Shown one piece after another: positions 29,440-47,648 of a stretch of DNA of 64,000 nt (position 1 is the first letter of the stretch; every line of letters begins with the position of its first letter). This DNA is from Puniceicoccaceae bacterium K14 (lineage in GTDB: Bacteria; Verrucomicrobiota; Verrucomicrobiia; Opitutales; Opitutaceae). A program made the translations under genes and the position numbers. The stretch lies in the NCBI GenBank assembly GCA_022538095.1, contig JAKYXN010000016.1, forward strand, positions 1 through 64,000, written 5' to 3'. The notes beneath the pieces were generated by a model. The model worked only from the letters and a program-made list of their open reading frames with translations, was not told the DNA's origin and searched no databases.

Positions 29440-30573
29440 TTATCCTTTGACCATTAGTTGGGACAGGGTGTCTAGGAAAAGGTCCATTTGCGTTTGAGTC
29501 CCAATGCTTACTCGTGCCCATGCTTGATATTTTCCAGGGATTACGCCCGACTCTCGAGACCCACTTATTAGAATTCCTTTTTCCTTCATTGAATCGCGGA
29601 GTTCTTGTTGATCAATCCCCGTTTTGAAGTAAATAAATGCTCCTTGAGGTTTCGCATATGTTATGCCCATTGCATCAAATTTATCACATACGTATGCTCT
29701 AGTTTTTTGATAGGCTTCTACATTATAAATCATGTGATCCATATCTTTGACGGCTTCTTGAGCTGCAATCGCTGCTATGAAGCTAGGAGGCCCCATGTAA
29801 TATGGCTTGATCGTATCTATAATTTTAGGACTTGCCACTGCGTATCCTACGCGGAATCCGGCTAGACCGTAGGCTTTGGAGAACGTTCTAGTTACGATAA
29901 CGTTGTCCAAGCTTTTTGCCATTGGAGCTATTGTAAGCATCCCAAAATTCTTGTCGGTCAATTCGAGGTAAGCCTCATCAACGAAGACGAGTATGTCTTT
30001 AGGGACGGACAATATGAATTTTTTCAATTCGATTGGATCCGCTAATACGCCTGTTGGGTTGTTCGGGTTGCAAATATAGACGATCACGGTGTTTTCGTCT
30101 ATGGCATCGCTCATGGCTTCAAAGTCATACCCCATATCCTCCGACAGGCTAGCGTACTTAATTTGCCCGCCCATTTCATCATACTTGCGAATGAGCTGGG
30201 TATAGCCCATTTCGGTTGTTACAACGTTCTTTTCAGGATCAGCATAGGCGATCGCTGTCATCATTAATAGAGGCCCAGAGCCTGCAGTCGTAAGTATGTG
30301 ATCACTGGGTACTCCTTCTTTTTCAGCGAGCAATTCGACTAGATCAGCAACGTCGTTTCGGTTGTAGTAGCTTCCTCCATCGAGTGCTTCAACTATTGCA
30401 GCCTGAGCTTTGGGAGAGTAGCCGAATGCGTTTTCATTACTGCTAAGCCGAATCAGACTATCTTTTAGCGTAGGAGCTGGTTCTGCTGAAAGTGAAAAGG
30501 AGAGAGCGATCCCTCCTAGGACGCTCATTAACCCGGAGCGCATCGATTTTTGATAGATTGAGATTTTGGACAT
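29440..30573 (-). CDS. Exported HisC-like PLP aminotransferase (copy 1)
   Basis: Class I/II aminotransferase of 377 aa related to histidinol-phosphate aminotransferase but with an N-terminal signal sequence: Lys-rich start, hydrophobic SVLGGIALSFSLSAEP (17-32), then the catalytic fold. PLP residues are intact: NPNNPTG (169-175), D200 and Y202 in VDEAYLEL, the Schiff-base lysine K233 in TFSKAYGLAGFRVGY, and R241. Export is unusual for this family. It has no twin-arginine motif, so Sec is suggested and PLP loading would be outside the cytoplasm. The start context AAAAAGATGTCC is shared with genes at 38758, 45447 and 45693. It lies between the TPR gene and ggt. Substrate unknown; the ARVSIG C-terminal Arg binds a carboxylate. 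Confidence 0.87.
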   Translation of the reverse strand: MSKISIYQKSMRSGLMSVLGGIALSFSLSAEPAPTLKDSLIRLSSNENAFGYSPKAQAAIVEALDGGSYYNRNDVADLVELLAEKEGVPSDHILTTAGSGPLLMMTAIAYADPEKNVVTTEMGYTQLIRKYDEMGGQIKYASLSEDMGYDFEAMSDAIDENTVIVYICNPNNPTGVLADPIELKKFILSVPKDILVFVDEAYLELTDKNFGMLTIAPMAKSLDNVIVTRTFSKAYGLAGFRVGYAVASPKIIDTIKPYYMGPPSFIAAIAAQEAVKDMDHMIYNVEAYQKTRAYVCDKFDAMGITYAKPQGAFIYFKTGIDQQELRDSMKEKGILISGSRESGVIPGKYQAWARVSIGTQTQMDLFLDTLSQLMVKG

Positions 30574-30599
30574 CTTTTTGTTATTTTGCTCAAATTGCG

Positions 30600-30628
30600 A
30601 AGTGGCTCACTAAATAGGCGAGCCACTT
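30600..30628 (-). terminator. Hairpin between TPR and aminotransferase genes
   Basis: The 9-bp stem AAGTGGCTC / GAGCCACTT (30600-30608, 30620-30628) lies between the TPR stop at 30658 and the aminotransferase start at 30573. It has no T tract on either strand, so it may be a transcript-stability or partial-termination element rather than a full terminator. Confidence 0.45.
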
Positions 30629-30657
30629 GGTGCAAGGAGAGAGGTGATAGAGGAAAT

Positions 30658-32028
30658 TTAAAGGGTTCGCTGAGCGGCGCTCTCGACTTTAACTAAATAG
30701 TCTGCCACGTAGTCTTGGAATTTGATGCCTTGGGCTTGCCTTAAATACGTCGCTGCGTCCTGGTATTCACGTTCCTTAACTTTTATCTGTGCCATTTTTA
30801 GTAATGCGCCGTGCTCGAATTCTGATATCTTGGCCGCATTTTCGGCATAGAAAAACGCTTTGGATAATTCGCCTTCTCTTACGAAATAGTCGCTAAGAAG
30901 CATTAAAGCTCGACCATTCATTGGATCCTTATCCACAACTTGCTCGAGTATTTCCGCGGCCTCTTTGTTTTCATCGAGGCCAAGCGCGACTTGGGCTTCC
31001 AGATTTAGAACATCCAGTTCCTCTTCTTCAGAAAATTCAGAACTGTATGCCGCTTTAAGTTTTCCGACAAATTCTTTGCATTCATCGAAGTTACCTAAGT
31101 TAGAGAGCGAAGTTGCTATTTTGATGGCTTTTGAGATATCAATCCCTTTGTCGAGGGACATGCTGTAGATTCTCAAAGCTTGCTCTGGCATTTCCATGTT
31201 TATGTAAATGTCCCCAAGCAGTGATAGGCTACTCGAGTTCGACGCGTCCATTTCGCTTATGATTTCCAAATTTGCAGCAGCGAGATCTAGTTGATCCGTA
31301 TTGAGAAATTGGTTAGCTTGTAATTGCCACAGCTCTGCATTGTTAGGAGCATCTTTTAGCATTTCGTATAATAAGGCAATCGCCTCGTTGCTTTCTCCCA
31401 ATGAGATGAGGCAGTTGAGTTTGCCCATCTTCCAGTCCTTGTTCTTTACATCGAGCATGATCGCTTGACGATAGGCATCTAAGGAACTGGCATATGAATC
31501 TTCATTCATGTAGCAATAACCAATTAAACCGTACAAATTTCCATCGCCTGGCTTTATGGCTAGGGCTTTTAAAAGATGCGGTAAAGCTTCTTCAAATTTG
31601 CTAGAATTGACATATGAACGGCCCAAATTGAGGTAAGCTCTATAATAGTTTGGGAACTTTTTTATGGCCGTCTCATAATACTGAATAGCCGTTTCCATTT
31701 CACCTGTTTGATAGTGAAGATTGGCGTAGATAAAATCGAAAGCTGCGTTCGTCTGCTCTGTTATATAGCCATCCAAGCGGGAAATAGCTGCTTCGGTTTG
31801 ATCGTTGTTCAACATCGGTATCATTTCATCGAAGACCTTTTTCTCTTCGCTCGTTATACTTGGGTTGACTTCTGTATCTATGTTATAGCTGCCGCGGAAT
31901 CGCTCTTGGAATTCAGGGTTGCTCCAATCGTTTGAGCTCAATGGGAAAGTGGCCCCTAGAGCAATGGGGGCGACGCATACGCAAATTGCCGCAGTTAGCT
32001 TCTTTAAGATGTATAATCTATTGTTCAT
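30658..32028 (-). CDS. Exported TPR protein of the TonB2 cluster
   Basis: Protein of 456 aa with a signal peptide (about 1-25) and about ten tetratricopeptide repeats across residues 60-450 (for example AIQYYETAIKKFPNYYRAYL, then FEEALPHLLKALAIKPGDG). The start codon overlaps the stop of tonB2 by one base (TAATG), so translation is coupled. TPR proteins occupy this position in TonB2 operons of Vibrio and Shewanella and are thought to assist energy transduction or complex assembly in the periplasm. The operon context gives the role; no catalytic motif is present. Confidence 0.85.
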   Translation of the reverse strand: MNNRLYILKKLTAAICVCVAPIALGATFPLSSNDWSNPEFQERFRGSYNIDTEVNPSITSEEKKVFDEMIPMLNNDQTEAAISRLDGYITEQTNAAFDFIYANLHYQTGEMETAIQYYETAIKKFPNYYRAYLNLGRSYVNSSKFEEALPHLLKALAIKPGDGNLYGLIGYCYMNEDSYASSLDAYRQAIMLDVKNKDWKMGKLNCLISLGESNEAIALLYEMLKDAPNNAELWQLQANQFLNTDQLDLAAANLEIISEMDASNSSSLSLLGDIYINMEMPEQALRIYSMSLDKGIDISKAIKIATSLSNLGNFDECKEFVGKLKAAYSSEFSEEEELDVLNLEAQVALGLDENKEAAEILEQVVDKDPMNGRALMLLSDYFVREGELSKAFFYAENAAKISEFEHGALLKMAQIKVKEREYQDAATYLRQAQGIKFQDYVADYLVKVESAAQRTL

Positions 32029-32699
32029 TATTTGTATGAGATTGGAACTTTGTATCTAATTCTAGCTTCTACAGGCTCGCCATTGCGCTTTGGTGTGCTG
32101 TATCGAAATGTTTTCATAAAATCTTTTATCATTTGCTCGTATTCGCGATGTGTAGCATCGACAGTTTTTTCGAATCGAACTGTACCGTCTTTTTGGATTA
32201 TACCGTATATGTCGACGTAGCCTTCAACTTTTTGAGCGCTCAGGCTTATTGGGTAGACCATTTTCCCCTGTCTGATTCTCCGTGGCATTTCGTCTAAGTC
32301 GCTTATTTCGAAGAGGCTGATATCTTCCATCGTGTCACTGGCATCCATTCCAACATTACCTAAGCCGAAATCGCCAGCTAATGCATCTCCAACTCCCGGA
32401 TTGATCGCCATTTCCAATTGGCTGAGCGACAATTGTTGAGGAGGTGGTTCCATCTCAGGAGTATCCTCAGTCTCTTCTGGTTCTGGAGGTGGCGGTGGCT
32501 CCGGTGGCGGTGGCGGCGGAGGTGGAAGTGATACGTCGAAACTACGGACGGATACATCTGGCTTCTTTATTCCGGCTAAGAATTGAGTGAAAGGAAGCAT
32601 GAGAAACATGCCGAACATCAATATTATGGAAATGATGACGCCTTTTGTTACGTTTTCACTAATCTGTGGCTCCCGATAGCCTGTCTTTGTCTTAGGCAT
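32028..32699 (-). CDS. tonB: TonB2-type energy transducer
   Basis: TonB family protein of 223 aa. The membrane helix is at about residues 20-44. A Pro/Glu spacer (about 55-85, PPPPPPPEPPPPPEPEE) and a conserved LSQLEMAINPG element follow. The C-terminal TonB domain covers about 135-222 (RRIRQGKMVYPISLSAQKVEGY, then FMKTFRYSTPKRNGEPV). It delivers proton-motive energy from the ExbB2-ExbD2 complex encoded directly upstream to outer-membrane receptors, likely including that at 36095-38758. It starts 14 bases after exbD. It closely resembles the TonB at 889-1542, so the two clusters are probably duplicates. Confidence 0.92.
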   Translation of the reverse strand: MPKTKTGYREPQISENVTKGVIISIILMFGMFLMLPFTQFLAGIKKPDVSVRSFDVSLPPPPPPPPEPPPPPEPEETEDTPEMEPPPQQLSLSQLEMAINPGVGDALAGDFGLGNVGMDASDTMEDISLFEISDLDEMPRRIRQGKMVYPISLSAQKVEGYVDIYGIIQKDGTVRFEKTVDATHREYEQMIKDFMKTFRYSTPKRNGEPVEARIRYKVPISYK

Positions 32700-32713
32700 A
32701 GTATCTTGATCGA

Positions 32714-33118
32714 TTAGGTGTCTGTAGAAACGTTTACAGTTTCTGCTCCAGCAAGTTTTGCTTCGTCTATGACTCGTATCAATAACTCAGTTGTTACAGA
32801 TTTATCTGCCTGGACGATTACAGGCATTTTCTCTTTGGCGCTCAGTTGTCTTACAATTGTTCGAACACCAGTGAGCCCTACTTCTCGTCCGCCATAAACG
32901 ACTTTCCCTTTGTCCGTAATTGCAATCAAAATACTGTTTTTTTCTAAGTCTACAGAGGATGCCGCCTGAGGCTTGTTAACATCCACACCTGTTTCTTCGA
33001 CGAAAACTGTAGTAACGATAAAGAATATCAGGAGTATAAATACCATGTCTATTAGAGGCGAAATATTGATTTCGTCGCTCTCTGCTTCGGCTGCTAAAGC
33101 TGATCTGCGTGTTTTCAT
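32714..33118 (-). CDS. exbD: ExbD biopolymer transport protein
   Basis: ExbD/TolR family protein of 134 aa. A short cytoplasmic N-terminus (to about 20) leads into one helix (about 22-42) with the proton-carrying Asp in [19 protein letters not shown], then a periplasmic domain (about 60-134). It forms the proton channel with ExbB2, whose gene overlaps its start by four bases, and precedes tonB2 by 14 bases. It is the only ExbD gene in the window, although there are two ExbB/TonB loci. Confidence 0.95.
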
Positions 33119-33729
33119 GCAAGGATAAGGTTTTGATTTCCTTTTTCGTGTTTGATAATTGTGAAAATTTCGAGTCGCGTGAAGAATACGTCTAGCTCGA
33201 CGGCCTGTTTCTTCAGGTTTGAAATGATAACGTAGGCTGGAATTGCTAGCACGAGTCCTGTTTGAGTCGTAATGAGAGCTTCGGAAATACCGCCTGCGAC
33301 AAGATCAATTGTGTCTCCTCCACTACCAGTCGACATACCAAAGAATGTATTCAACATCCCCATAACAGTTCCGAGTAGGCCAGCGAGTGGAGCAGTGCCT
33401 ATGAGGATGTTCGCAAAGTTGATTCGCCCTTCAATCCTTGGAATATGAGCAGATCTTAGTTCGGAAATCCGACTTCGAATCTCAAAACTGTTTTTGCAAT
33501 CCTCCTGACTGTATTTTATGATATCACCAATCTCGCCCTGCGCTTCGTTTGGAGAGTCGATCCAGTGTCGCCACTCGTTTTCGTCATGCTTGAGGTAGTT
33601 GTGTTTTCTCAGGTAAAGATACAGTTCGAATACCCCCAGGTAAATAAAACATCCCAGGGCGAACAGTGGAATCATCAATGCTCCTCCGGCCGTCCAGATT
33701 TCGAGTACTTGATCAATCAAGTTTTCCAT
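33115..33729 (-). CDS. exbB: ExbB2 proton-channel subunit
   Basis: MotA/TolQ/ExbB family protein of 204 aa with three membrane segments (about 17-35, 108-132, 148-172). The signature [21 protein letters not shown] and [18 protein letters not shown] are intact. The cytoplasmic loop [23 protein letters not shown] matches the ExbB at 1572-2174. It overlaps exbD by four bases and starts 20 bases after the TtpC-like gene. With ExbD and TonB2 it forms the energy-coupling complex. Confidence 0.94.
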
Positions 33730-33749
33730 TACTCTTTGCTAATTTTGGG

Positions 33750-35156
33750 TTATGCGCTGGCTTGCTTTGATTTGTTTATAGCTTTCAACCCGTTAAGAAA
33801 GCTCATTGAAATTCGCTCCATTTTGGAAATGTCGCCTTTTGCTTTCCTAGATAAAATGGCATAAAGGATTAGACTTGGTATTGCCACCACCAGACCAAAT
33901 TCAGTGGTTATGAGCGCTTCTGAAATACCTCCTGAGAGAGACTTTGCATCTCCTGTGCCAAAAATTTTGATGCGGTTGAATGTATTTATCATACCGGTTA
34001 CCGTACCCAAAAGTCCGAGTAGGGGAGCGACAGCTGCTGTGACTGAAATAAAGGGAAGCAACCTCATTTTAGAAGGCTGAGTTTCTACGATTCGTTCGTA
34101 CATCATTTCATCCAATAGTTCGGTATCAAAGTGAGAGTATTTCACCCCCACTTGTAGCATTTCTCCCACCGGACCTTTGGTTTCGGTTGCTGTTTCCATA
34201 GCTTGGTCCTTCTTGCCTTCGTTTAAAAATACTAAGAGGTCCTGGGTTATGCCTGATTTCGGAGCAGGTGAAGTGTAAAGTTCAACTGCTTTAAATGCGG
34301 CCACTATAAGCGAAACTATTGCGAAGCCTAGAATTGGATACACCCACAACCCACCTTTTTGAATATGCTCAACAAGGCTTTCCTTGGTTGAGGCGATGGC
34401 GATCGCGTTAGTGAGCGAAGAATCAAGTGGCGTAAATGATACTTCGCCCTTTACCACCTGAGCGATTTCGTCATCGAACGAACCTTCTGCGATTGTTTCG
34501 ACTGTTGGTTGCAGGGATTGGCCGCGTAGGGTGATCCCGGCCGAACTCCCGTCATCACTAGCGAAAAAGGAAACAGGACCCACAAGTCCAAAAGTTCCCT
34601 GTTCGACAGTTCCAGCTTGAGTAACTGCCATACCCGGAAAGGTCATTCCTCCAATTAGCCCTTTGACTCGATCAATTCCTGTATCGATTACTGATAGTTG
34701 CGCTAAGAGTTTCTCTTTTTCGGAAGCGCCTGGATTGTCTACGATTTCAGTAGCTTCAGTAATGTTATCGGTGTAAAGAGGTAGCTCTGCGATGTCCAAA
34801 CGAGATTCGAGCATTCGAATGTATTCAGATGACAAATTCGAAACGTAGTCTATCTCTTCTTTTTGAAGGTCTACTCGTTCAGATAAGGAAGTTAGGTCGC
34901 TACTAGCGTTGTCTCGAACCCTTGCGGCCTTGTCGCTATCACGACGAACTGTCTTTAGATCAGCCAGAAGAGCTTGTCTTTCTTTTGAAAGCGGAATTTT
35001 CTCGTCGCGGATTATAGATCTTGTATCCGCGAGCTTAGCAAGCGAGTCTTCGAGTTTTTGATCAATGGATGCTTGAGCTCCGGAAAACGATTGCCCTGAC
35101 ATTAGGACGGGTATTGCTGTCAAGCAGGTGATTGAAAGGAGTTTAAATGCGTTCAT
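33750..35156 (-). CDS. TtpC-like ExbB family protein with periplasmic coiled-coil extension
   Basis: Long MotA/TolQ/ExbB family protein of about 468 aa. A signal peptide (MNAFKLLSITCLTAIPVLMSG) is followed by a coiled-coil/periplasmic domain (about 30-270), then three membrane helices. The proton-channel signature APLLGLLGTVTGMINTFNRI and [19 protein letters not shown] lie in the last 100 residues. This layout is that of TtpC in Vibrio and Shewanella TonB2 systems, an extra subunit required for TonB2 but not TonB1 function. The frame is open to a TTG at 35186, but the ATG at 35156 starts a clean signal peptide and leaves a 19-base gap from the DUF3450 stop. Confidence 0.9.
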   Translation of the reverse strand: MNAFKLLSITCLTAIPVLMSGQSFSGAQASIDQKLEDSLAKLADTRSIIRDEKIPLSKERQALLADLKTVRRDSDKAARVRDNASSDLTSLSERVDLQKEEIDYVSNLSSEYIRMLESRLDIAELPLYTDNITEATEIVDNPGASEKEKLLAQLSVIDTGIDRVKGLIGGMTFPGMAVTQAGTVEQGTFGLVGPVSFFASDDGSSAGITLRGQSLQPTVETIAEGSFDDEIAQVVKGEVSFTPLDSSLTNAIAIASTKESLVEHIQKGGLWVYPILGFAIVSLIVAAFKAVELYTSPAPKSGITQDLLVFLNEGKKDQAMETATETKGPVGEMLQVGVKYSHFDTELLDEMMYERIVETQPSKMRLLPFISVTAAVAPLLGLLGTVTGMINTFNRIKIFGTGDAKSLSGGISEALITTEFGLVVAIPSLILYAILSRKAKGDISKMERISMSFLNGLKAINKSKQASA

Positions 35157-35175
35157 GCGTCTTAAATTTGGTATC

Positions 35176-35949
35176 TTATTTATCAAGTTTAACAGGTACT
35201 GCGATGAAGCTGGCTTCTTGGGTGCCCTCGTAAACTCCTACGAGCCCTTTTACTGAATCAGAAATATCGTTATCTACTGTCCAATCCCATCCTTCAGTTC
35301 CAGGCCTGCCGTATCCTGCATAAATTCCACTGGCATCTACGAAATAGGCGGATGCTAGACCGAAATAGAGTTTTGTTACTTCAGCTGTGTTGCCATCGCC
35401 GATGTCTTGTATCCCGGTATCTTTTGTGACGACACCGTTGAATTTGTCGATGGCCGTTAATATTCCTACGACGTTTTGCAGTCGAGAAGAGATCGGAATA
35501 TCGGTATCCAAACTATCCTCAGGCATACGTGATGTGAGGGGCTTGATTTGGCTGATTAATGGGGCGGGAAATAGGGGAAATAAAGATCTTAATGACGTTT
35601 CATATTTCGACAGTAATGCCTTAACTTCGTCGGAAATTTCACTATAAATTTCTTTTTGTTCGTTAAGTTCCGCTTTTTTGGTTTCTGTTGTGGAAGCGGA
35701 CTCTTCATATTCTTCTATCTGCTTTTGCAGTCCTTCGATCTCGCCCTTCATTAGAGATATGGAATCTGCCATTATTTCCTTCTCCATAGCCCAGCGGTGT
35801 TTGTCCTCAGAGATTTGCTTCTCGATGGATATCCATTCAGACAATTTCATTTGAGAATCCTTAATCGGCTCCTCTGATTTTAGGGCAGGGACGCCGATCA
35901 AAGTCAGGCTTGCAGCTGTGATAGTAATAAATCGATTACTGAGTATCAT
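35176..35949 (-). CDS. DUF3450 protein of the TonB2 cluster
   Basis: Protein of about 257 aa with a signal peptide (MILSNRFITITAASLTLIGV, about 1-22), a coiled-coil rod (about 35-120) and a C-terminal beta domain with LYFGLASAYFVDASGIYAGYG and WDWTVDNDISDSVKGLV. It matches DUF3450, which always accompanies TtpC-type ExbB genes in TonB2 operons and probably pairs its coiled coil with TtpC in the periplasm. I chose the ATG at 35949; the open frame to 35985 begins with TTG and would mask the signal peptide. It is the first gene of the six-gene operon to 30658. Confidence 0.87.
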   Translation of the reverse strand: MILSNRFITITAASLTLIGVPALKSEEPIKDSQMKLSEWISIEKQISEDKHRWAMEKEIMADSISLMKGEIEGLQKQIEEYEESASTTETKKAELNEQKEIYSEISDEVKALLSKYETSLRSLFPLFPAPLISQIKPLTSRMPEDSLDTDIPISSRLQNVVGILTAIDKFNGVVTKDTGIQDIGDGNTAEVTKLYFGLASAYFVDASGIYAGYGRPGTEGWDWTVDNDISDSVKGLVGVYEGTQEASFIAVPVKLDK

Positions 35950-36032
35950 TTGTAGTAGATGAATGTATTGACAGAATAATTGCAAAATAGCTTTGCGGGT
36001 GAAAGGTCGTTTGAGATGAGAGATTTTTTAAA

Positions 36033-36069: not shown

Positions 36070-36094
36070 CAATTATGTGCTACAGCATGCTCGA

Positions 36095-38758
36095 TTAAAA
36101 TTCAGTCTTAAGTGTAAGTGTGAATTGTCGACCACGGTCCGCTAGGACTTGGCCATTATCATCGTTGTAAGAACGTGCTAGCCAAAAGTACTGATCAAAT
36201 AGGTTGTAAACGCTCAATGACGCGGTCCAACCTTCAAGAGACGTTCCTGCTTTTCCTGAGTAAGTGACTCCCGCTTCGAAGACCGAGTATGAGTCTACAG
36301 GTTGTGTATTCAAAGTATTGACATAGACATCGTCGAAATACTTTCCTCCGAGATTGAAGCGGAACTGGCCTTTCGTGTAGATGGCATCGAGATTAATGGT
36401 AGTAAAAGGTGTATTACCTAGGTCATTGCCTTCTATGTCTTCGAAAACTGCAAATCCTCCACCACTTAATTCTTCGTATCTAAATCCTTCTGGAATGATT
36501 TCGTTGCCTTCTTCGTCCGTTGGGATTGCGGTTATTGTACCGACACGTAAGTCTTGTTGGAAAGTCGTTTCTTGGAATGCGACAGAACCTACCAGTTTCA
36601 AACCTTCGATAGGCGTATTCCAAACTCCAGATAGCTCTGCTCCAATTGAATCGACACCGCCAACATTCTGGAAAACGCTGTTCCCAGCTGCTCCAGCATC
36701 GGCCGAATCAACGGGTACTGCGGAAGATAAAATTCTATCAGTGTATTCTATCATGTAAGCTTGGGCTGTATAGCTAAAGTCGCCAATCGTGCCACGGAAG
36801 CCAATATCGATGTTGTCGGAGTATTCTGGTTTTAGAATGTCTGCGTCGAATCCGTCGCCAGCAGTTGTGATGGTTCCGTTGTCAGGAGTCGCCATGTTCT
36901 CAGAGTAGTTCAAGAATAACTCGGAGCTATCTGATACTTTATAGACGATTCCCAACTGCGGAAGAAAGTAGTCATCGTATGATACAGATCGCTCTACTTC
37001 CTCGTTAGCTATCCAATCAGAAAATGCGAGAAAGCCGTGTGCGTCTCTATCCATTTGAATGGCCTTGATACCGAAGATGATATCGAGTTTGCCATCAACC
37101 GCTTTGAATGTATCTTGTACCCACATTTGAGTGACGGTTTGATCGATATAGCGAGTATAGTTCAGGAAGTTGAATTGGTCGTAAAGAAAGGCGCCTGTAA
37201 TGCTGCCGCCTTCAAGATTGTAATTCGGACGCTCTGTACCATGGTGATCAACTTCATGCCATCCACCGAAAAGTATTTTATGTTTTTCGGTTTCGTATTC
37301 AAATGAAGCGGTGATACCCCAGCGATGTCCACCGAAGTTTTCGTCTCGTCCCGTACGTCCGGGAACACCTGCAACAAAAGGATCGTCGTCTTCGGATCCT
37401 GATGGGGGTGCGACAGTGGGTGCAGATATTGCGTGGTCGGAACTGTATTCTTCTACGGGTTCACCGGCCTCATTGAGAGGATTGCCATTGACGTCGTAGT
37501 ACAATATTCCCCAAATGTCAGTTCTGTCTGGATCGGCTTTGTACGCCGCCCGAATTTGTCCCTCAGCATAGGAAGTTTGACGGCCAAATAAGCCGTAGTT
37601 TTCCTTGTCTTGATAGTATGGTGTAACATTGACTGAGAAATTATCGGAAAACTCGTAGTCTAGGTTGACGCTGTATAGTGTATCCATTCTTCCGTTTCTC
37701 CAGAGGTTGTAGTATTGAGCGTTTACGCCTTCTCCTGCTTCTTCTGAAGGGTCTATATATGTAGGAGGTCCAATATTTCGTCCCTCATCAGACATATCTG
37801 CATAGTTGAATGATCCTAGATCCGGAAAATCCCATGGTGTGAATTCAATATAACCTTCGCCTGTGCCTCTATAGTTACCTGCTTCTAGGTCTTGCCATTC
37901 CTGCCAGTCTAGGCCAGCTGTATCATAATCGTCTCGATCGTTGAAGACGAACGAGAAAGTAAGGTCCCCCTTTCCGGAAGGCAGTTCGTATTTTGACTTG
38001 AACTCGTAGCGCTTGTTTTCGCCTTTTGCCAAACCGACAAGTCCACGTGGAGAAAACTCAAAATGGTAAGCACTGAAGTATGACGTTAGCCCTGGTAGAA
38101 TTTCTCCAGTGTTGAAACGTCCAAAAAGGCTTATGTGATCGAAGTCTCCGTACGAGGCTTCTAAATAGACGCCTTGTTCATCTGTAGGATCGATAGAAGT
38201 GTATTGTATTGATCCGCCTAGAGCTTGATAAGCAGGTGTTGTTACATCTCCGGCACCTTGAGATACCTTAATATTCGCTATGTTGGGACCGGATATAATT
38301 CTCCCGATAGGTGTACCATATCTCGCGTCACTATTGCCAACTGGGACTCCATCTAAACTTACTCCCAGGTTATCTATATCGAACGCACGAATACGTATGT
38401 CGTTTCCAAATTCGTAAAACCCGAATGGATCTCGGGTGACAACGTTTACTCCCGGCACTTTATCGATCATTTTTTCCGGCTGTATGCCAGGGAACGAAAT
38501 GTCAATGGACTCGAGGTCAAGTGAGTTTGTTGCCCTACTTTCACCCTGTCCAATAGCTTCGAACGATTCTACGATTTCCATCATATCGTCGTCTTGAGCT
38601 ATTAGTAAGGTTGTAGAACCGATTAGACAACTTGCCACGGCAAGCTTGATAAATGGAAGGCTTGATAAGTGTGAGCTGTTAAGCTCAAGCTTTCCATGCA
38701 TACGCGAACGATCGCATTGAATCCCATTGCTTTGGGAAGCAGCATTTAGTTTGGACAT
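36095..38758 (-). CDS. TonB-dependent outer-membrane receptor
   Basis: Receptor of 887 aa. The N-terminus is long (about 55 residues to TTLLIAQ|DD), with the hydrophobic signal core at about 36-54. The plug domain (about 75-200) shows IDKVPGVNVVTRDPFGFYEFG, then IRIRAFDIDNLGVSLDGVP and GALGGSIQYTS-like sequence. The 22-strand barrel fills the rest and ends in FTLTLKTEF with the terminal Phe used for BAM insertion. It lies directly upstream of the TonB2 operon and is its likely client. The ligand cannot be read from sequence; there is no siderophore or cobalamin context. Its start context, AAAAAAGATGTCC, matches that of the exported aminotransferases and flavoprotein. Confidence 0.93.
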   Translation of the reverse strand: MSKLNAASQSNGIQCDRSRMHGKLELNSSHLSSLPFIKLAVASCLIGSTTLLIAQDDDMMEIVESFEAIGQGESRATNSLDLESIDISFPGIQPEKMIDKVPGVNVVTRDPFGFYEFGNDIRIRAFDIDNLGVSLDGVPVGNSDARYGTPIGRIISGPNIANIKVSQGAGDVTTPAYQALGGSIQYTSIDPTDEQGVYLEASYGDFDHISLFGRFNTGEILPGLTSYFSAYHFEFSPRGLVGLAKGENKRYEFKSKYELPSGKGDLTFSFVFNDRDDYDTAGLDWQEWQDLEAGNYRGTGEGYIEFTPWDFPDLGSFNYADMSDEGRNIGPPTYIDPSEEAGEGVNAQYYNLWRNGRMDTLYSVNLDYEFSDNFSVNVTPYYQDKENYGLFGRQTSYAEGQIRAAYKADPDRTDIWGILYYDVNGNPLNEAGEPVEEYSSDHAISAPTVAPPSGSEDDDPFVAGVPGRTGRDENFGGHRWGITASFEYETEKHKILFGGWHEVDHHGTERPNYNLEGGSITGAFLYDQFNFLNYTRYIDQTVTQMWVQDTFKAVDGKLDIIFGIKAIQMDRDAHGFLAFSDWIANEEVERSVSYDDYFLPQLGIVYKVSDSSELFLNYSENMATPDNGTITTAGDGFDADILKPEYSDNIDIGFRGTIGDFSYTAQAYMIEYTDRILSSAVPVDSADAGAAGNSVFQNVGGVDSIGAELSGVWNTPIEGLKLVGSVAFQETTFQQDLRVGTITAIPTDEEGNEIIPEGFRYEELSGGGFAVFEDIEGNDLGNTPFTTINLDAIYTKGQFRFNLGGKYFDDVYVNTLNTQPVDSYSVFEAGVTYSGKAGTSLEGWTASLSVYNLFDQYFWLARSYNDDNGQVLADRGRQFTLTLKTEF

Positions 38759-39151
38759 CTTTTTTAGTATTGGTTAAGGATTAAAAATCTTAACGAGGCT
38801 CGCTTAGCATAGAAGATGCCAATAGGTTCTAAGTCTTGTTTGCTTGTTAGTTGGGTCAAATAACATGGTTAATTGAATACGTATTCTCAGTGTTCTTGTT
38901 TGTTCGATTCTTTCTATTATAAAAGGGAGGTGTCTAAGTGTAGCGTCTAAGTTGTATTGTTTTTCATACAGAGTTGCTGTTGTATGAATGAGATTTGATT
39001 AAGTTATGAATATGTTTAAATTTGAGCTCCTAGATTCATTTTGAAACATTTTGCCGGAGTGTCATTCGGTTCATGTCATAAAGCGAATCTTGGCATTTCT
39101 AGTGCTATTAGGCGTCTTTTGATTTCCCAAAATGGGAAAAAAAGATGTCCT
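38759..39151. promoter_or_regulatory. Divergent intergenic region between two receptor genes
   Basis: This 393-base AT-rich region contains promoters for both outer-membrane genes. A plus-strand TTGTTT...TATAAA pair near 38900-38925 is possible. At 39124-39140 a small hairpin TTTCCC-AAAAT-GGGAAA precedes AAAAAAAGATGTCC, in which the ATG (39145) is out of frame with the downstream barrel gene and opens a 27-codon reading frame ending at 39228. The frame of the barrel gene itself is open to a TTG at 39041, but the ATG at 39152 begins a clear signal peptide. Confidence 0.45.
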
Positions 39152-41545
39152 ATGAATTCCCTTACAAGCAACATACCTGTTGTCGTTTTTGTATTACTGC
39201 TTGTCCCACTTTATGGTCAGAGCAGTGACAACTCAAATGAGAAAAAGAGTCCGGATGAGACTACTCAAAGTCCGAGAGAGCGCGGGAGAGTATTACAGAA
39301 ATTGAACCCAATAGCATCTGAACACCAGGTGTTTGGGGCACTCGGGAGCATTCCGGGTAGCGATGCTGATGGAGAGGGAGTTGACTACCGTTCGTTCTTT
39401 TCAAATGGGGAGCCTTTTTCTGGTCCAAGCAAGTATTTGAATTTTTCTCTCTCTGGAAATTATAATGAACTTTCAGCGAATTCAGAATTTGGTGGGGCGT
39501 TTGATTACGGGTTTGAATTCGGACAGGATGGAGATTGGTATTTAAAATTAGGTGCTCGATCAAGTGCCTCAGATCGGATTGTCGAACACTACAACTCAGC
39601 GTGGAAACAGTTTGGAGATTCTGAAGGAGTCTATTTCCTCGATCGACCCCGTTTCTCTGAGGACTTTATTTATACGAGAAACAATGTGTATGCCTTGGAG
39701 TTGCATCATCGCCTGAATGATAGGCATAGAGTTTACTATAAAGCTTCCTATCAGGATTATTTCGATAATTTTTATCGGAATAGGCTGGAGCTCCAATATG
39801 GTAGTGGCTCGATTGATGACCAATCTATAGTAATCGGAGGGGACGGAGAGTCTATAGTGGCAGCTATCTCATCTGGCGCGTCCACACGTAGATATTTTGG
39901 CAATACGGATACCCAACGCGATAGGCAACACCATGTTGTAGGAGGTTCGTATGAAGGAGAAGCCTGGTCACTAGACTATTCGGTTTATTATCACAATTGG
40001 GAAATTGAACAGGAATGGTACAATTGGAATTTTAATGATTTTAACTTAGATATTTCATATGACATCGAGGATCGCTATTTTCCTGATTACGAAGTTGTTA
40101 GCGGTGAAGATTTGCTTGAAACAAGTAGTACTCGATTTTCCAGTTTGCGAATACACGATACCTCGACAAAAGACGAAGACTTAGCGGCGCGCCTTGATGC
40201 AGAGAGAAGGGTGCTTGTATCAGATACTGAGGTTTGGCTGCAGTTGGGAGCCTTATACCGTGAAAAGAATAGAACCAATGAAGAGATTCGAGATGTGTTT
40301 GGCTTTGATAGCGACGATCCGTTCTATTTATCGGATGTAGATAAAAAACGGTCTCCAGGTGATCTAATTGTAGACTCAACATTCCAAAAACCTACCGGAC
40401 TCGACCCCCTGTTGGCAGAGAATTTCTTTTTTAGTTCGAGTGATGAATTTGTATTCAATGATTACAATAGTATCGTTGAGTCGGCTGCTCAACTTTATGA
40501 AGCGTTCGAATCTGTTGCAGGTGGGTACGGTCTTGCTGTTTGGGAAAATGGAGATTGGGCATTTGAAGTAGGAGCTCGATATGAGAAGTCGAATACAGAT
40601 AGTGTCGGGCGAATTGTAATTCCCGAAGAGGTTAACGATCCAAGTGAGGGTTTGGAGATCCTTCGAGTAAGAGCGAACGAAGGGGCTGCCTATAGCATAA
40701 TAAAGGATCTTTCCGCATCGAACACTTATGATAATCTTATTCCTTCTGCAGAATTTGAATACAAAATAGGCGATCGACTTAAATTGCGTGGCGGTTGGTT
40801 TAATCGTTTGATGCGGCCTCAGTATTACAATATTGTAAATTATCGTCGCATAAGTTTCACTACGAAAACTGTATCTGAAGGAAATCCTCTTTTGAGTCCG
40901 ACTAAAATTGAGAAATCGAGATTAGCTTTAATTACTGAATTGGATGCGTTGGGATCCTTTGCGTTCGAGGTATACAGCATCGATATTGAGGATTTTTTTT
41001 ACGACGCGGTTTCTCAGGAAAATATATTCGTAAATGGTGTGCCTGAAGAGTACACTGTGACCAGGGTTGAAAACGGTAAATCTGGAAGTATTAAGGGATT
41101 CGAAATACAATGGAGGCGAGGCCTTGATTTTATAGGATTGGGTGAGGAGGCTTCTATTCAAATTTCGTATACCTATTCTGATTCCGAAGCAGAGGTTGTA
41201 ACTCGTCCGAATGAAAGCTTCCTTTTACCGGAGAGATCCGAGCATCTGCTCAAAGTTGATTTGAGGAAGAAAATTGGAAATGCGACAGTTTCCTTTAATG
41301 CCGGGTATCAAAGTGAGGCATTGGATAATTTGGGAGCTTCTGTATACCGAGACAGATACAGGGAAGATGTCATTTCATTAGCGTTTACGGGAAGTTATAA
41401 ACTAAATAGGCGTTCGAATATTGGCTTGGCCATCAGCGGTATTTTGGATCACCCGGAACGTTCTTACGATGGATCTAATATACGCGTTCAAAATAATCAA
41501 TACAGCTCTTGGCTGGCGCAATTGAGGTACGACTTCAAAATTTAG
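39152..41545 (+). CDS. TonB-dependent-receptor-like outer-membrane barrel, apparently plugless
   Basis: Outer-membrane protein of about 797 aa. A signal peptide (SNIPVVVFVLLLVPLYGQ) is followed by a polar stretch of about 50 residues and then at once by barrel-like strands (YLNFSLSGNYNELSANSEFG, DWYLKLGARSS). The later part follows TonB-dependent receptor barrels: LIPSAEFEYKIGDRLKLRGGW with RPQYYNIVNYR, and SGSIKGFEIQWRRGLDFI near the end. It terminates in SSWLAQLRYDFKI. I find no plug: the usual 120-150 residues with a VDGVP-like motif and GGxINxVTK exit are absent. The ending Ile is also atypical. The MFS transporter gene begins 20 bases after its stop, so the two likely act on one substrate. 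Confidence 0.8.
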   Translation: MNSLTSNIPVVVFVLLLVPLYGQSSDNSNEKKSPDETTQSPRERGRVLQKLNPIASEHQVFGALGSIPGSDADGEGVDYRSFFSNGEPFSGPSKYLNFSLSGNYNELSANSEFGGAFDYGFEFGQDGDWYLKLGARSSASDRIVEHYNSAWKQFGDSEGVYFLDRPRFSEDFIYTRNNVYALELHHRLNDRHRVYYKASYQDYFDNFYRNRLELQYGSGSIDDQSIVIGGDGESIVAAISSGASTRRYFGNTDTQRDRQHHVVGGSYEGEAWSLDYSVYYHNWEIEQEWYNWNFNDFNLDISYDIEDRYFPDYEVVSGEDLLETSSTRFSSLRIHDTSTKDEDLAARLDAERRVLVSDTEVWLQLGALYREKNRTNEEIRDVFGFDSDDPFYLSDVDKKRSPGDLIVDSTFQKPTGLDPLLAENFFFSSSDEFVFNDYNSIVESAAQLYEAFESVAGGYGLAVWENGDWAFEVGARYEKSNTDSVGRIVIPEEVNDPSEGLEILRVRANEGAAYSIIKDLSASNTYDNLIPSAEFEYKIGDRLKLRGGWFNRLMRPQYYNIVNYRRISFTTKTVSEGNPLLSPTKIEKSRLALITELDALGSFAFEVYSIDIEDFFYDAVSQENIFVNGVPEEYTVTRVENGKSGSIKGFEIQWRRGLDFIGLGEEASIQISYTYSDSEAEVVTRPNESFLLPERSEHLLKVDLRKKIGNATVSFNAGYQSEALDNLGASVYRDRYREDVISLAFTGSYKLNRRSNIGLAISGILDHPERSYDGSNIRVQNNQYSSWLAQLRYDFKI

Positions 41546-41565
41546 ATTACGTTTTTTTACAATTA

Positions 41566-42780
41566 ATGAGTGATACTTGTCTAGCAAATAATGATAGGGC
41601 TTCATCTGCTTTTGTAAGCGGGTTAATGCCTTTTTGTAATTTTGCACTTTCATGGCAAAATTCTATTCAGTTGCTGGTTCTGCCTTGGGTTGTGGGACAA
41701 TTAGGTGGGGGAACAGGTGATGTCGGGTGGTTGATTGGAGTTACTGCCATCGCAATTGGGCTGGGGACCTCATTTTCAGGAGCGGTATCGGATATTTGGG
41801 GTCGCGGACGATTACTTGTATTAGGTCTTTCGATTATTTGCATTGCTTTGTTATTGCATGCATGGGTGGACTCGGTGCGCATGCTTATGGTGTTGCGGCT
41901 TCTTTGTGGTTTTGGAACGGGCCTCTCTATTGGTTTGCCTGTGACCATTCTTAGCGATTTTTCCAGTGGGGAGCAATTGCGGTGTAAGACGAGTGACAAT
42001 GTAATTGCTTATATGATTGGGCAAACCTTTGCCACTCCGGTTGGTCTGATCGCTGTAAAATTGTATGGTTACAAATTCGTTTTCATTGGAATTGGAATTT
42101 TTATAACGACCTTAGTTGCTTTTTTGATATTAAATCTAGACAGGATAACGAAAAATAAAACACGAAGAGTACGTTTATCAAAATTCCTTTGGTTTCAGTT
42201 GAATCGTCAAATTTGGAAGGTTAATAGTGGAGCTCTACTTGTTTTTTATGTTCTTAGTTTCGCAGGGTCCTCACTGTTTTTGTGCTATTTTCCATCTTGG
42301 TTTAAATTTGAACACGACTATTCACTTTCAACTATCTCAGTGTTTTATTTTTTGAGCGGTGTCTTTCAAATTCTTATTGTCTATGTATCTAGAAAACAAC
42401 TATTAGGTATGTCTGTCGAGCAATGCGTTCTTGTTTCATTGCTGACGCAGGGGGTGATGATTTTGTTGCTCTATTTTTTCGCCAATAGTCCTAATTTGAG
42501 CTTGGCCATATTTTCGCTTATCATGTCTGCTCTTTCGGTTCGTGTACTGCCTCTCCAGTTATTTGCTCTAAGTGTGGGGAGTTCTAATGAAAAAGGTATT
42601 CGAATTGGGATGATGAATACAGGATATCAAGCAGGACGGGCAATTGGAGGTACTCTGGCTGGCTTGCTATTAATGAGCGATTCGCCTTCTTACTTTGTTT
42701 TGATCTTATCCGTTTTATTACTCTTGTCTGGAGCGAAGATCGTTAGTCGAAGTGCTGTATTCAGTATTAGCTCAAATTAG
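41566..42780 (+). CDS. MFS transporter
   Basis: Inner-membrane transporter of about 404 aa with 12 predicted helices. The first half has the MFS motif GAVSDIWGRGRLLVLGLSI between helices 2 and 3 and RLLCGFGTGLSIGLPVTI in helix 4; the second half includes GNQ-like YQAGRAIGGTLAGLLL in helix 11. The ATG at 41566 (MSDTCLANN) is preferred to an upstream frame that overlaps the barrel gene. It starts 20 bases after that gene and is surely co-transcribed. The substrate may be an amino acid, keto acid or peptide given the neighbouring genes, but nothing in the sequence proves it. Confidence 0.85.
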   Translation: MSDTCLANNDRASSAFVSGLMPFCNFALSWQNSIQLLVLPWVVGQLGGGTGDVGWLIGVTAIAIGLGTSFSGAVSDIWGRGRLLVLGLSIICIALLLHAWVDSVRMLMVLRLLCGFGTGLSIGLPVTILSDFSSGEQLRCKTSDNVIAYMIGQTFATPVGLIAVKLYGYKFVFIGIGIFITTLVAFLILNLDRITKNKTRRVRLSKFLWFQLNRQIWKVNSGALLVFYVLSFAGSSLFLCYFPSWFKFEHDYSLSTISVFYFLSGVFQILIVYVSRKQLLGMSVEQCVLVSLLTQGVMILLLYFFANSPNLSLAIFSLIMSALSVRVLPLQLFALSVGSSNEKGIRIGMMNTGYQAGRAIGGTLAGLLLMSDSPSYFVLILSVLLLLSGAKIVSRSAVFSISSN

Positions 42781-42799
42781 TACGGTAAAATGATAAGAA

Positions 42800-42820
42800 A
42801 ATACCTGTTTTTTAGGTATT
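42800..42820 (+). terminator. Possible terminator after the MFS gene
   Basis: The 7-bp stem AATACCT / AGGTATT flanks a loop of G and six T (42800-42820), 20 bases after the MFS stop. It is AT-rich and lacks a T tract behind it, so the call is tentative. Confidence 0.4.
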
Positions 42821-43011
42821 AATAATAATTATCAAATAAAGCATTTGAGAGGTCAGCTCTGGCACAAGCAATGCTGAATTGAAGATGTCCAGTAAACAAA
42901 TCAACACACTCGCAACCAAAACTGACGGTGCGAGACAATGTTGATGCTTTTCATAAAATCAACTTATTTTGTAATTTTACTAAAGTATGAGTAATCTTTT
43001 TCTAGGGATAT

Positions 43012-43052
43012 ACGCGGAGCCAATCCTCTAAATAGGATTGGCTTATCCGCGT
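43012..43052 (-). terminator. Long hairpin at the 3' end of the Tat-aminotransferase gene
   Basis: The inverted repeat ACGCGGA-GCCAATCCT, loop CTAAAT, then AGGATTGGC-TTA-TCCGCGT spans 43012-43052 with a three-base bulge. It includes the stop codon of the aminotransferase gene. No T tract follows, but the stem is long enough to cap a transcript or stop polymerase. Confidence 0.55.
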
Positions 43053-44191
43053 TTACCCTTGAACACTTGGAGCATCGCGGAGCTATAAAGCTCCATTTCT
43101 TTAGGGCTGCCAATGCTAATACGGCACCACAAATCGTAGGGCGGAAAGGGCCTTCCGACTAAGAAATTTCTTTCTTTCATTTTCTTTTGGAAGGCTTCTA
43201 TGGGGATGCCAGTGTAGTGAAAAACGAAATTTCCGTGAGATGGAGTATAGCTGAGGTTCAATTCTTGAAGTAATCCGCAAAACTTGTTTCTTCCTTCTGT
43301 TATTTTACGAACAGAGAGTTTGTGAAATTCGGAGTCTCGTAAGCTTGCCGTGGCGGCTATGACTCCTAGGTAGTTGAGGCTTGAATTTTTTTCGTGTTCT
43401 AAGCTCTCGGAAATCTCTTTTGGGGCGATTGTGTACCCAATTCTATGGCCTGCTAAGCCGTGCATTTTTGAGAAGGATCGCCCAATAATTATGGGAAGAC
43501 CTTCTCTCACGAGGTTAACTTGTGTTTCGTTTTCGAAGTTCTCTAGGAATTCCAAATAGACTTCGTCTAGGAATACAGTGGTTTTTTTTCCAGCAGTTTC
43601 GCAGAATGACTTTATGGATTCAAAGGAACGCATCGTTCCTGTAGGAGTGTCGGGGTTACAGATATAGACCAAACTTGTATTTGAATCGATCGCCTCTTGC
43701 ATCGATTCGAGGTCGTGTTTCATTTCAGCTGTGTGCGGAATCCAATTAACAGTAGCCCCTTGGTGTTCCGCTTTTTCCATTAGCTGAAGGTAAGTGGGTT
43801 TTGTGGCGACAATGTTAGATCCTTCTTTGCCGTAAATTCTTCCAGCAGCAGATAGGAGTTCATCACAACCATTGCCTAGGACAATGTTCTCGGGTTGAAC
43901 ACCTTCTTTTCGGGCAATCATTTCTTTGAGAATTTTTTCCTCCCGAAAGGGGTAGCGGCAACTGTTCGATACCTCTTTCATGATTGCTAGGCTCACATTT
44001 CTGGAAGGTCCGAATGGGTTCTCATTGCCAGCAAGGTTTATGAATTTGAGCTCTGGATGGACTGGGGCGATATTGGAGACATTTTGCGAGAAGCCCTTGG
44101 GGAAGGTGGGGAGGAGTGTCGCTCCAACAGCAGCTAAGGTCGAGCGTCGTATCCAGTCTCTGCGAGTTATTCCTGTATTGGCTTTTGTCAT
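43043..44191 (-). CDS. Tat-exported HisC-like PLP aminotransferase (copy 2)
   Basis: Aminotransferase of 382 aa of the histidinol-phosphate type. The N-terminus is a twin-arginine signal: TRRDWIRR at 9-16 followed by STLAAVGATLLPTFP, so it is exported folded and can carry its PLP with it. The catalytic fold follows: GNENPFG (55-61), CNPDTPTG (178-185, with the second Asn replaced by Asp), D209 and Y212 in LDEVYLEF, Schiff-base K242 in RSFSKMHGLAGHRIGY. It has the IPIEAFQKKMKERNFLVGRPFPPYDLWCRISIG ending shared in pattern with copy 3. A terminator-like hairpin lies 7 bases before its start, so expression depends on read-through from copy 3. It probably transaminates an amino acid in the periplasm. 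Confidence 0.88.
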   Translation of the reverse strand: MTKANTGITRRDWIRRSTLAAVGATLLPTFPKGFSQNVSNIAPVHPELKFINLAGNENPFGPSRNVSLAIMKEVSNSCRYPFREEKILKEMIARKEGVQPENIVLGNGCDELLSAAGRIYGKEGSNIVATKPTYLQLMEKAEHQGATVNWIPHTAEMKHDLESMQEAIDSNTSLVYICNPDTPTGTMRSFESIKSFCETAGKKTTVFLDEVYLEFLENFENETQVNLVREGLPIIIGRSFSKMHGLAGHRIGYTIAPKEISESLEHEKNSSLNYLGVIAATASLRDSEFHKLSVRKITEGRNKFCGLLQELNLSYTPSHGNFVFHYTGIPIEAFQKKMKERNFLVGRPFPPYDLWCRISIGSPKEMELYSSAMLQVFKGKRG

Positions 44192-44197
44192 TGTTGT

Positions 44198-44226
44198 AAA
44201 AAGGCGGTTGCTTCACAGCAACCGCC
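44198..44226 (-). terminator. Strong terminator between the two aminotransferase genes
   Basis: A 10-bp perfect stem (GGCGGTTGCT / AGCAACCGCC, loop TCAC; 44203-44226) is followed on the minus strand by five T (44198-44202 on the complement). It lies after the copy 3 gene and only 7 bases before the ATG of copy 2, which leaves no space for another promoter. Confidence 0.85.
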
Positions 44227-44280
44227 CATATTCTTCAAACTTACTATATAAACGTATGAACTAAAACTAAATAAGGTAGG

Positions 44281-45447
44281 TTAGTTGGCTGCCAATTTGC
44301 CTTGAGCGATCATGACATTCTCAAATTCTTCTAAGAAAATTGCCATTTCCTCTTCGGTCCCTATGCTCACTCTGCACCAGTCCAAGTAAGGAGGGAATGG
44401 GCGACCAACAAGTAAATTTTTGTCTTCCATTAAGCTTTGGAAAAACTTGATTGGTATACCCGTTTTTATGAATACAAAGCTTCCTTGAGCATCTGCGTAT
44501 TCGATTTCGAGTTCATCCAGTTTGTCGGTTACCATTTTGCGAACGGCTCGGTATTTCATGACGCTATCATCGAAAAAAGCCGTGTCTGCAAGAGAGGCAA
44601 CTGCAGCCGCAATTCCTAGGCGATTAGGGCCTCCCATGTGGTAGAGTCTCAGTTTTTTGACCATTTCTGGATCCATGATTCCGTAGCCAACACGAATACC
44701 AGCCATGCCGTATACCTTGGAAAAGGTACGTGCAATTATGATATTCTCGCCTGCTTTCAGGAGATCGATCATACTGTTTTCTTCTAGGCCTCCGTCAGCT
44801 AGTTCGAGATATGCTTCGTCGACGAAAGCTACGATTGATTCTGGAAGCTCTGTTATAAAAGCTTTCAAAGCAGTTGGATCAATCTTAGTACCCGTCGGGT
44901 TGTTAGGATTGCACAGGTATACAAGCACTGTGTTTTCGTCGATGGCAGCTTTTATCGCTTCTAAGTCGTACCCGAGCTTATCATTGACAGGAATTGTTTT
45001 CACCTCTCCACCCGCTGCTTCGAATGTTCGCGTTAGCTGCATGTATCCAGGAGCCACTGTAATCATGTTTTTTCCAGGTTCAGCGATTGCGAGAGCTGCC
45101 ATTTGCAGGATTGGACCAGAGCCACCTGTAGCTATAATGTAATCTGTGGGGACTCCTTCTCGAGCGGCAAGCGCTTCCCGAAGGACTTGACCTTCTGTGA
45201 ATGCGTAACGATTCACATTTGGAAGATCTTCCATGATGGCCATCATTGCCATTTGAGAGTAGCCGAACGCATTTTCGTTTCCACTAATGCGAATGGGAGC
45301 CATGTCGGCTGCATCGTCATCGACTTCGTGTTGAGCTACAAGTGAGCTAGCCGAAGTTAACAATGCCCCGATTCCGAAGGCAGCTAGTTTCCAAATACTC
45401 GGCGACGCTGAGGATGAGGTAATGCTATAAGGTGATTTTTTAGACAT
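44281..45447 (-). CDS. Exported HisC-like PLP aminotransferase (copy 3)
   Basis: Aminotransferase of 388 aa, closest in pattern to copy 1 (shared GNENAFGYS, YLCNPNNPTG and VDEAYLEL stretches). Its signal sequence is SIWKLAAFGIGALLTSASSLVAQ (about 18-39), ending in an AQ cleavage site; there is no RR, so Sec is suggested. PLP residues: NPNNPTG (180-186), D210, Y213, Schiff-base K244 in TFSKVYGMAGIRVGY, R252. The C-terminus has RPFPPYLDWCRVSIG as in copy 2. The start context CAAAAAGATGTCT is shared with three other genes here. It is divergent from the flavin oxidase operon. Together they suggest amino-group exchange and oxidation outside the cytoplasm. Confidence 0.88.
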   Translation of the reverse strand: MSKKSPYSITSSSASPSIWKLAAFGIGALLTSASSLVAQHEVDDDAADMAPIRISGNENAFGYSQMAMMAIMEDLPNVNRYAFTEGQVLREALAAREGVPTDYIIATGGSGPILQMAALAIAEPGKNMITVAPGYMQLTRTFEAAGGEVKTIPVNDKLGYDLEAIKAAIDENTVLVYLCNPNNPTGTKIDPTALKAFITELPESIVAFVDEAYLELADGGLEENSMIDLLKAGENIIIARTFSKVYGMAGIRVGYGIMDPEMVKKLRLYHMGGPNRLGIAAAVASLADTAFFDDSVMKYRAVRKMVTDKLDELEIEYADAQGSFVFIKTGIPIKFFQSLMEDKNLLVGRPFPPYLDWCRVSIGTEEEMAIFLEEFENVMIAQGKLAAN

Positions 45448-47632: not shown

Positions 47633-47648
47633 ATTTGAGTCAATTTAT

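Follow-up and report, generated by a model that had tools for sequence, protein, structure and literature searches.

A conserved gene cluster of Puniceicoccaceae bacterium K14 that looks built to strip amino-acid nitrogen before cell entry

Our analysis of a 64,000-nucleotide stretch of Puniceicoccaceae bacterium K14 (GenBank assembly GCA_022538095.1, contig JAKYXN010000016.1, positions 1 to 64,000 of the forward strand; hereafter, the window) revealed a conserved gene cluster with the look of a system for removing the nitrogen of amino acids ahead of their uptake. Three aminotransferases with export-type signals (AT1, AT2, and AT3) lie there among genes resembling those of an L-amino acid oxidase (LAAO), a cytochrome c, an ammonium transporter (AMT), a RidA-like protein (RID3), a TonB2-type operon, a gamma-glutamyltransferase (GGT), and a dipeptidase, a functional context that went without mention in the initial annotation of the aminotransferases. 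We tentatively favor periplasmic nitrogen scavenging by transdeamination, in which AT1 and AT3 would be exported by the Sec pathway and loaded with pyridoxal phosphate (PLP) outside, a reading on which we are almost evenly divided.

Results

The three aminotransferase reading frames named in the initial annotation were present, all on the minus strand: AT1 (copy 1, 29440-30573), AT2 (copy 2, 43043-44191), and AT3 (copy 3, 44281-45447), encoding 377, 382, and 388 amino acids, respectively. The Aminotran_1_2 family (PF00155) matched every copy at 141-166 bits (cut-off 19.7), and the Schiff-base Lys as well as the Asp, Tyr, Ser, and Arg columns were kept throughout, consistent with class I/II aminotransferases. 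Their designation as histidinol-phosphate aminotransferases could not be upheld, as AT1-AT3 scored 221.5, 226.8, and 222.6 bits with the HisC model TIGR01141, all under its curated cut-off of 276.55. The best NCBIfam models were hisC and PRK09105 (NF006580, a PLP-dependent aminotransferase; PDB 3ly1), the latter ranking first or second for each copy at 221, 227, and 243 bits under a cut-off of 444; the model of PtaA (NF051461) followed lower, at 167, 186, and 204 bits under a 500-bit cut-off. The predicted structure of AT3 had a mean predicted local distance difference test score of 87.1, the prediction being highly confident from roughly residue 50 onward and scoring below 50 for residues 1-48, and 3ly1 was the nearest PDB structure to AT3 both by sequence and by fold. 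Elsewhere in the K14 genome (G000; 358 contigs, 97.36% complete), a profile search detected two genes that exceed the curated hisC cut-off, on contigs C221 and C315, the latter among genes resembling hisD, hisB, and hisH by eye, so none of the three copies is the only HisC of the genome. The only-HisC and cytosolic readings of AT1-AT3 were rejected in view of these two genes, the N-terminal signals, and the tree.

The implied oddity of export for such proteins also fell away. Among the 80 best named loci and the genomes searched, relatives with signals of the twin-arginine translocation (Tat) type occur in Bacteroidota, Pseudomonadota, Fidelibacterota, and Verrucomicrobiota, and PtaA, a periplasmic transaminase of Pseudomonas, is a characterized example. 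As judged from their sequences, AT1-AT3 are members of a widespread and already known kind, the exported HisC-like aminotransferases. PtaA, likewise HisC-like, is their nearest characterized relative; it is Tat-exported and belongs to a pyoverdine context, whereas here a Tat-type motif is found in AT2 only and the surrounding genes are those of an amino acid oxidase cluster. According to the sections of PMC6206403 on which we draw, PtaA and PvdN carry PLP through the Tat pathway, a route that would suit cofactor enzymes in general because their cofactor is inserted in the cytoplasm. No PtaA member over the cut-off was found in 115 genomes of the order to which genome G423 belongs and six further genomes, so PtaA itself is absent from our tree.

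For the phylogeny, relatives were gathered from Verrucomicrobiota genomes, other searched genomes, and the best 80 of 572 confirmed named loci of a public genome collection; the careful tree comprised 69 chosen rows out of the 142 in a wider fast tree. Rows with identical cores, cores shorter than 250 amino acids, or cores starting late in the model were removed before counting, and 39 cytosolic-type rows were set apart by the pattern Y-x-P-G-x-P. AT1 and AT3 formed one clade of 23 rows (support 100/100), bearing out the duplication suggested earlier for copies 1 and 3. Within it, AT1 was a single clade (100/100) nested in AT3, with two forks (100/97 and 100/96) leaving AT3 proteins outside, and AT2 made up a separate clade (100/100). 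The stretch GNENAFGYS, previously cited as common to AT1 and AT3, is shared as NENAFGYS, AT1 reading SNENAFGYS. The PLP-site motifs, described as intact in all copies, are so in AT1 and AT3, where NPNNPTG is kept in 12/12 and 11/11 proteins, but AT2 is not fully canonical: NPDTPTG replaces NPNNPTG in the window copy, NPDTP[ST]G is found in all 10 orthologues (the window copy and nine others), and the Asn before PTG, which we take to contact PLP, is missing there. A GRPF-like motif occurs in all 10 AT2 and all 11 AT3 proteins and in none of the 12 AT1 proteins, including that of the window. These motif differences suggest that AT1, AT2, and AT3 probably act on different substrates and that the PLP chemistry of AT2 may be altered, possibly with a change of reaction. 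Genome G334 contains three AT1-clade copies, on contigs C19, C37, and C59 (loci L188, L190, and L187), one of them beside a divergent AT2, and Puniceicoccaceae bacterium 5H (L058/L177) has two tandem AT3 copies and one AT2.

All three window copies carry a hydrophobic N-terminal segment, in line with the signal sequences reported for them and without a counterpart in the two HisC proteins of the genome, and the twin-arginine motif was confirmed for AT2 alone (TRRDWIR). AT1 and AT3 have Sec-type signals without RR. In both, the start codon is preceded by an in-frame stop no more than about 11 codons away, which rules out an overlooked RR farther upstream. We scored Tat signals by a rule of our own, namely RR, a hydrophobic residue two further on, and then a hydrophobic stretch. 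Conforming signals were found in 0/11 AT3, 2/12 AT1, and 10/10 AT2 proteins and in 94/98 other relatives, the four misses being L006 (RRDWIK with a weak hydrophobic segment), L094 (RRRDLLK further upstream), L002 (a cytosolic HisC of K14 itself), and L077 (cut by a contig end). An RR near the hydrophobic segment was kept in 8 of the 23 proteins of the joint clade (seven AT1 and one AT3); the two conforming AT1 proteins are two of the three copies of G334. A signal-peptidase-like site, in which QHE[VFI]D follows a small residue at position -1 and a residue at -3 that is either small or aliphatic, is present in 11/11 AT3 proteins (in the window, cleavage is predicted between LVA and QHEVD), and QHE is found in 0/159 other rows. 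The maximum hydrophobicity of the signal region was higher in the AT1 + AT3 clade (23 versus 105 other exported rows; Mann-Whitney p 1.5e-10, with relatedness ignored). The simplest reading of these signals would be that Tat targeting was lost once, at the root of the AT1 + AT3 clade, and the clade appears to have switched to a route that should leave PLP, the vitamin B6 cofactor, behind. TatC was present in 5/5 genomes checked, which we count in favor of the proposed scavenging. A precedent in the form of a Sec-exported PLP racemase was sought in the literature, where nothing usable was found.

Across an intergenic region (45448-45692), divergent from AT3, lies a plus-strand run of genes headed by LAAO (45693-47267), which has the Tat-type signal TRRKFVK. 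The same intergenic arrangement occurs in relatives (232-260 bp in the 6 measured), and an alignment of 6, inspected for a conserved operator, revealed little conservation apart from the ends and a GGCA block. The best PDB match of LAAO was 2jae, the Rhodococcus L-amino acid oxidase (E 5.7e-99), which likewise counts for the scavenging reading; LAAO also matched PF01593 (Amino_oxidase) at 152 bits and aligned over its full length with 2jae, including the substrate-binding Arg and the neighboring Tyr pair, in keeping with membership of the RoLAAO type. We take Arg84 and Tyr371 to be the carboxylate-binding residues of RoLAAO-type oxidases. LAAO is followed by a small c-type cytochrome (CLACH, 47264-47632) with a possible lipoprotein signal by eye, the AMT (47622-49007; TIGR00836 at 388.2 bits, over its cut-off of 343.3), and RID3 (49026-50474), which contains three Rid (L-PSP) stretches and, by eye, a hydrophobic anchor at its N terminus. 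Rid proteins are usually single-domain trimers; in RID3, three Rid stretches are fused in one anchored protein. An aldehyde dehydrogenase gene (50564-51961) was left out of the system, as it lies on the strand opposite to RID3 and is 28-37% identical to the aldehyde dehydrogenases of related clusters.

Comparable systems have been described. In Gluconacetobacter diazotrophicus, as far as the consulted part of PMC5053998 goes, a lao-cccA-ridA cluster encodes a Tat-type LAAO and, like the window, unites genes for a Tat-type L-amino acid oxidase, cytochrome c, and RidA; unlike what is given there, the window has an AMT inside the operon, a triple anchored RidA, and adjoining exported aminotransferases and TonB2 genes. 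In Chlamydomonas, the excerpt of PMC10805672 used here describes periplasmic LAO1 with RidA (LAO2) as releasing ammonium, which resembles the window in periplasmic amino acid deamination with a RidA partner. That system is eukaryotic, and no transaminases are mentioned in the same excerpt.

Conservation was followed at nine loci, those of the window, G018, Pelagicoccus sp. SDUM812005, P. mobilis, Puniceicoccaceae bacterium 5H, G202, G334, G056, and G038; NCBI taxonomy places Pelagicoccus and the Puniceicoccaceae in Puniceicoccales, class Opitutia. Neighboring genes at these loci and at four distant LAAO loci were located by tblastn; several of the genomes were assembled from metagenomes into short contigs, and the length of sequence read varies between loci. 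We count several patterns in favor of a coupled system. The order LAAO-cytC-AMT-RID3 was found in 9/9 genomes with the locus read (the window and eight others), in G038 on a different contig from AT3; AT2 stood beside an AT3 copy in 8/9, and AT3 and LAAO were adjacent and divergent in 7/9. In a comparison of 387 Verrucomicrobiota genomes, the strongest AT3 matches (E <= 5e-161) and the strongest LAAO matches (at least 59% identity) fell in the same six genomes, with the best few candidates per genome scored and the cut-offs placed at wide score gaps after the search. RID3 orthologues of at least 44% identity (E 1e-105 or better) were present in 10/10 AT3 genomes and 0/2 controls. Of 69 distant exported-aminotransferase loci, 7 were found to have RidA, which in 6 of them directly adjoins the aminotransferase gene (five mutually related Fidelibacterota loci, including one where the reading spans masked sequence, and a gammaproteobacterial locus); LAAO was found in 2, both in Bacteroidota and both directly beside the aminotransferase. 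RidA also directly adjoins the LAAO-like gene in 3/4 of the distant Verrucomicrobiota loci (G300, G399, G317, and G003). In the tenth AT3 genome, that of Pelagicoccus sp. SDUM812002, locus L069 covers the AT1 side only, and RID3 lies on the same contig as AT2 and AT3; AT1 follows the TonB2-type operon in this genome, the window, and G018.

A fourth exported relative, AT4, with the signal MKRRDWIK, is encoded on contig C307 of K14. Its presence and the recurrence of the AT1-AT3 arrangement, whole or in part, in related genomes argue that this arrangement is more than chance. In the open-licence PMC literature, we found no description of an exported aminotransferase combined with an oxidase, RidA, and a transporter. 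The AT4 region (C307 10271-16359; L050) is a second PLP island of the same genome, comprising a Tat-type class V aminotransferase, a single RidA with a signal, the Tat-type HisC-like AT4, and a TonB-dependent receptor.

The remaining genes of the cluster lie on the AT1 side. On the minus strand, an M19 membrane-dipeptidase-type peptidase (26260-27558) and the GGT (27571-29301; TIGR00066 over its cut-off), both with Sec-type signals by eye, are followed, past AT1, by a TonB2-type operon made up of a tetratricopeptide repeat (TPR) protein at its end (TtpD-like, 30658-32028; Pfam and conserved order), a TonB-like protein (32028-32699; by eye and conserved order, with no NCBIfam match at 1e-15), an ExbD-like protein (32714-33118; by eye and conserved order), an ExbB/TolQ-like protein (33115-33729; TolQ model match, under its cut-off), a TtpC-like long MotA/ExbB protein (33750-35186; Pfam), and a TtpB-like DUF3450 protein (35176-35985; Pfam). 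TonB-dependent receptor 1 (36095-38758) lies on the same strand, and a putative outer-membrane receptor 2 (39041-41545; no Pfam match, proposed from its size, look, and conserved place) and a poorly conserved major facilitator superfamily transporter (41509-42780) are on the plus strand. The receptors had no match among PDB sequences at E 0.01. The portion of PMC6957404 considered here describes the Vibrio TonB2 system, with TtpB2, TtpC2, and TtpD2, in iron uptake. The window resembles it in having DUF3450, long MotA/ExbB, putative ExbB, ExbD, and TonB, and TPR genes in one run, and differs in that the operon is placed beside aminotransferases.

Discussion

From the signal types, the clade-wide loss of the Tat motif, the clustering, the phylogeny, and the catalytic residues, all read from sequence, together with the predicted fold of AT3, we infer the localization, PLP loading, electron acceptor, substrates, and transaminase-oxidase coupling of the following scheme. 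TonB2-energized receptors would bring amino-compounds or peptides across the outer membrane, and the exported GGT and dipeptidase, where present, would free amino acids. The exported aminotransferases would move amino groups from various amino acids onto a keto acid, and the Tat-exported LAAO would re-oxidize the newly formed amino acid, passing electrons to cytochrome c. The anchored triple RidA would hydrolyze the imine, the ammonium transporter would take up the ammonium, and the keto acid would go back as acceptor. AT2 would cross folded with its cofactor via Tat, and AT1 and AT3, switched to Sec, would be translocated unfolded and acquire PLP once in the periplasm. The complete version, comprising extracytoplasmic transdeamination from three transaminases to one oxidase with a cytochrome c sink and a RidA and AMT exit, a Tat-to-Sec change around the duplication, and periplasmic PLP uptake, is conceivable but, taken whole, somewhat unlikely. 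The cluster suggests how some Verrucomicrobiota may mine amino-acid nitrogen without importing amino acids, and, if the scheme is true, a Sec-exported lineage taking PLP in the periplasm implies a periplasmic supply of PLP. A clade that has lost the Tat motif yet retained its PLP site provides a natural test of PLP loading outside the cytoplasm, for which AT2, the Tat-type relative next door, offers the control.

Several results weigh against this scheme. AT1 and AT3 are on different contigs in G056, G202, G334, and G038, no AT1 was found in the 5H genome, and GGT and M19 were found in the stretches read of only 4/9 genomes (the window, G018, and two Pelagicoccus). Our Tat rule was drawn up after the sequences had been seen, 2/12 AT1 proteins still conform to it, and six more clade members (five AT1 and one AT3) carry an RR that fails it; judged by these signals, the Tat-to-Sec switch is less clean in AT1 than in AT3. 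Within the stretches read, neither RidA nor LAAO was found in 60/69 distant loci, which argues that the aminotransferase-oxidase coupling is not general for the family. Around the four distant Verrucomicrobiota LAAO-like genes (38-42% identical), no aminotransferase was found by tblastn in 16.6-20 kb, and the occurrence of LAAO with RidA in such loci suggests that this pairing is older and wider, the transaminases being an addition in this clade. Finally, ammonium could be released by the oxidase with no contribution from transaminases. The oxidase operon might scavenge nitrogen by itself or make keto acids or auxin-like signals (cf. Gluconacetobacter and Chlamydomonas), with the aminotransferases serving some other, merely neighboring periplasmic reaction. 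The same four LAAO-like loci, three of them with an adjoining RidA, and the same 60 aminotransferase loci speak for such a separation, as does the Gluconacetobacter lao cluster, in the description of which, within the part of PMC5053998 cited above, an exported aminotransferase is not mentioned. The divergent adjacency of AT3 and LAAO in 7/9 genomes, the co-occurrence of their strongest forms (6/6), and the renewed adjacency of the two enzymes in two Bacteroidota loci fit it poorly, and we consider it unlikely.

Two other explanations concern what the exported enzymes act on and how they leave the cytoplasm. The cluster could act on a peptide metallophore, tailoring or recycling it in the periplasm much as PtaA and PvdN process pyoverdine, with TonB2 and the receptors importing a ferric compound that the exported enzymes modify. 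The M19 peptidase of the window would suit this role, PvdM being of the same peptidase kind. So would the action of PtaA, the nearest characterized relative, on pyoverdine in the periplasm (PMC6206403, in the sections used) and that of TonB2 as an iron-uptake system in Vibrio (PMC6957404, likewise in part). Its standing is lowered by the lack, at E 1e-10, of nonribosomal peptide synthetase (NRPS) condensation domains in 3/6 cluster genomes (G334, G056, and P. mobilis), such domains being present in those of the window, G018, and G038. Moreover, no PvdN- or tyrosinase-like gene was seen among the annotated window genes, not all of which were scanned, and the presence of the AMT gene within the oxidase operon speaks for a role in nitrogen supply; for a metallophore, we see a small chance. 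We give equally little credence to AT1 and AT3 being still exported by Tat through degenerate signals, or anchored in the inner membrane by uncleaved ones, in which case no periplasmic PLP would be needed or the cofactor would travel along. The RR near the hydrophobic segment in 8/23 clade proteins, two of them conforming to the Tat rule, would be accounted for in this way, but not so readily the 0/11 conforming AT3 proteins, their cleavage-like residues at -1 and -3 before QHE[VFI]D in 11/11 cases, or the more hydrophobic signal region of the joint clade.

Some further observations were made in passing. Window positions 889-2174 hold a second TonB-/ExbB-like gene pair, recognized by similarity to the TonB2-type genes. 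Large NRPS genes are located on contigs C220 and C292 of K14, other contigs than that of the window, with 12 condensation-domain matches in all. In four Fidelibacterota loci (L070, L073, L074, and L078), a RidA gene directly precedes a Tat-type aminotransferase, the next gene in L074 encoding a DUF885 protein. In 32 of the 69 distant loci (Bacteroidota, between L076 and L135), the next gene comes from a single membrane-protein family, of which one of the two members scanned gave a Mem_trans match under the cut-off.

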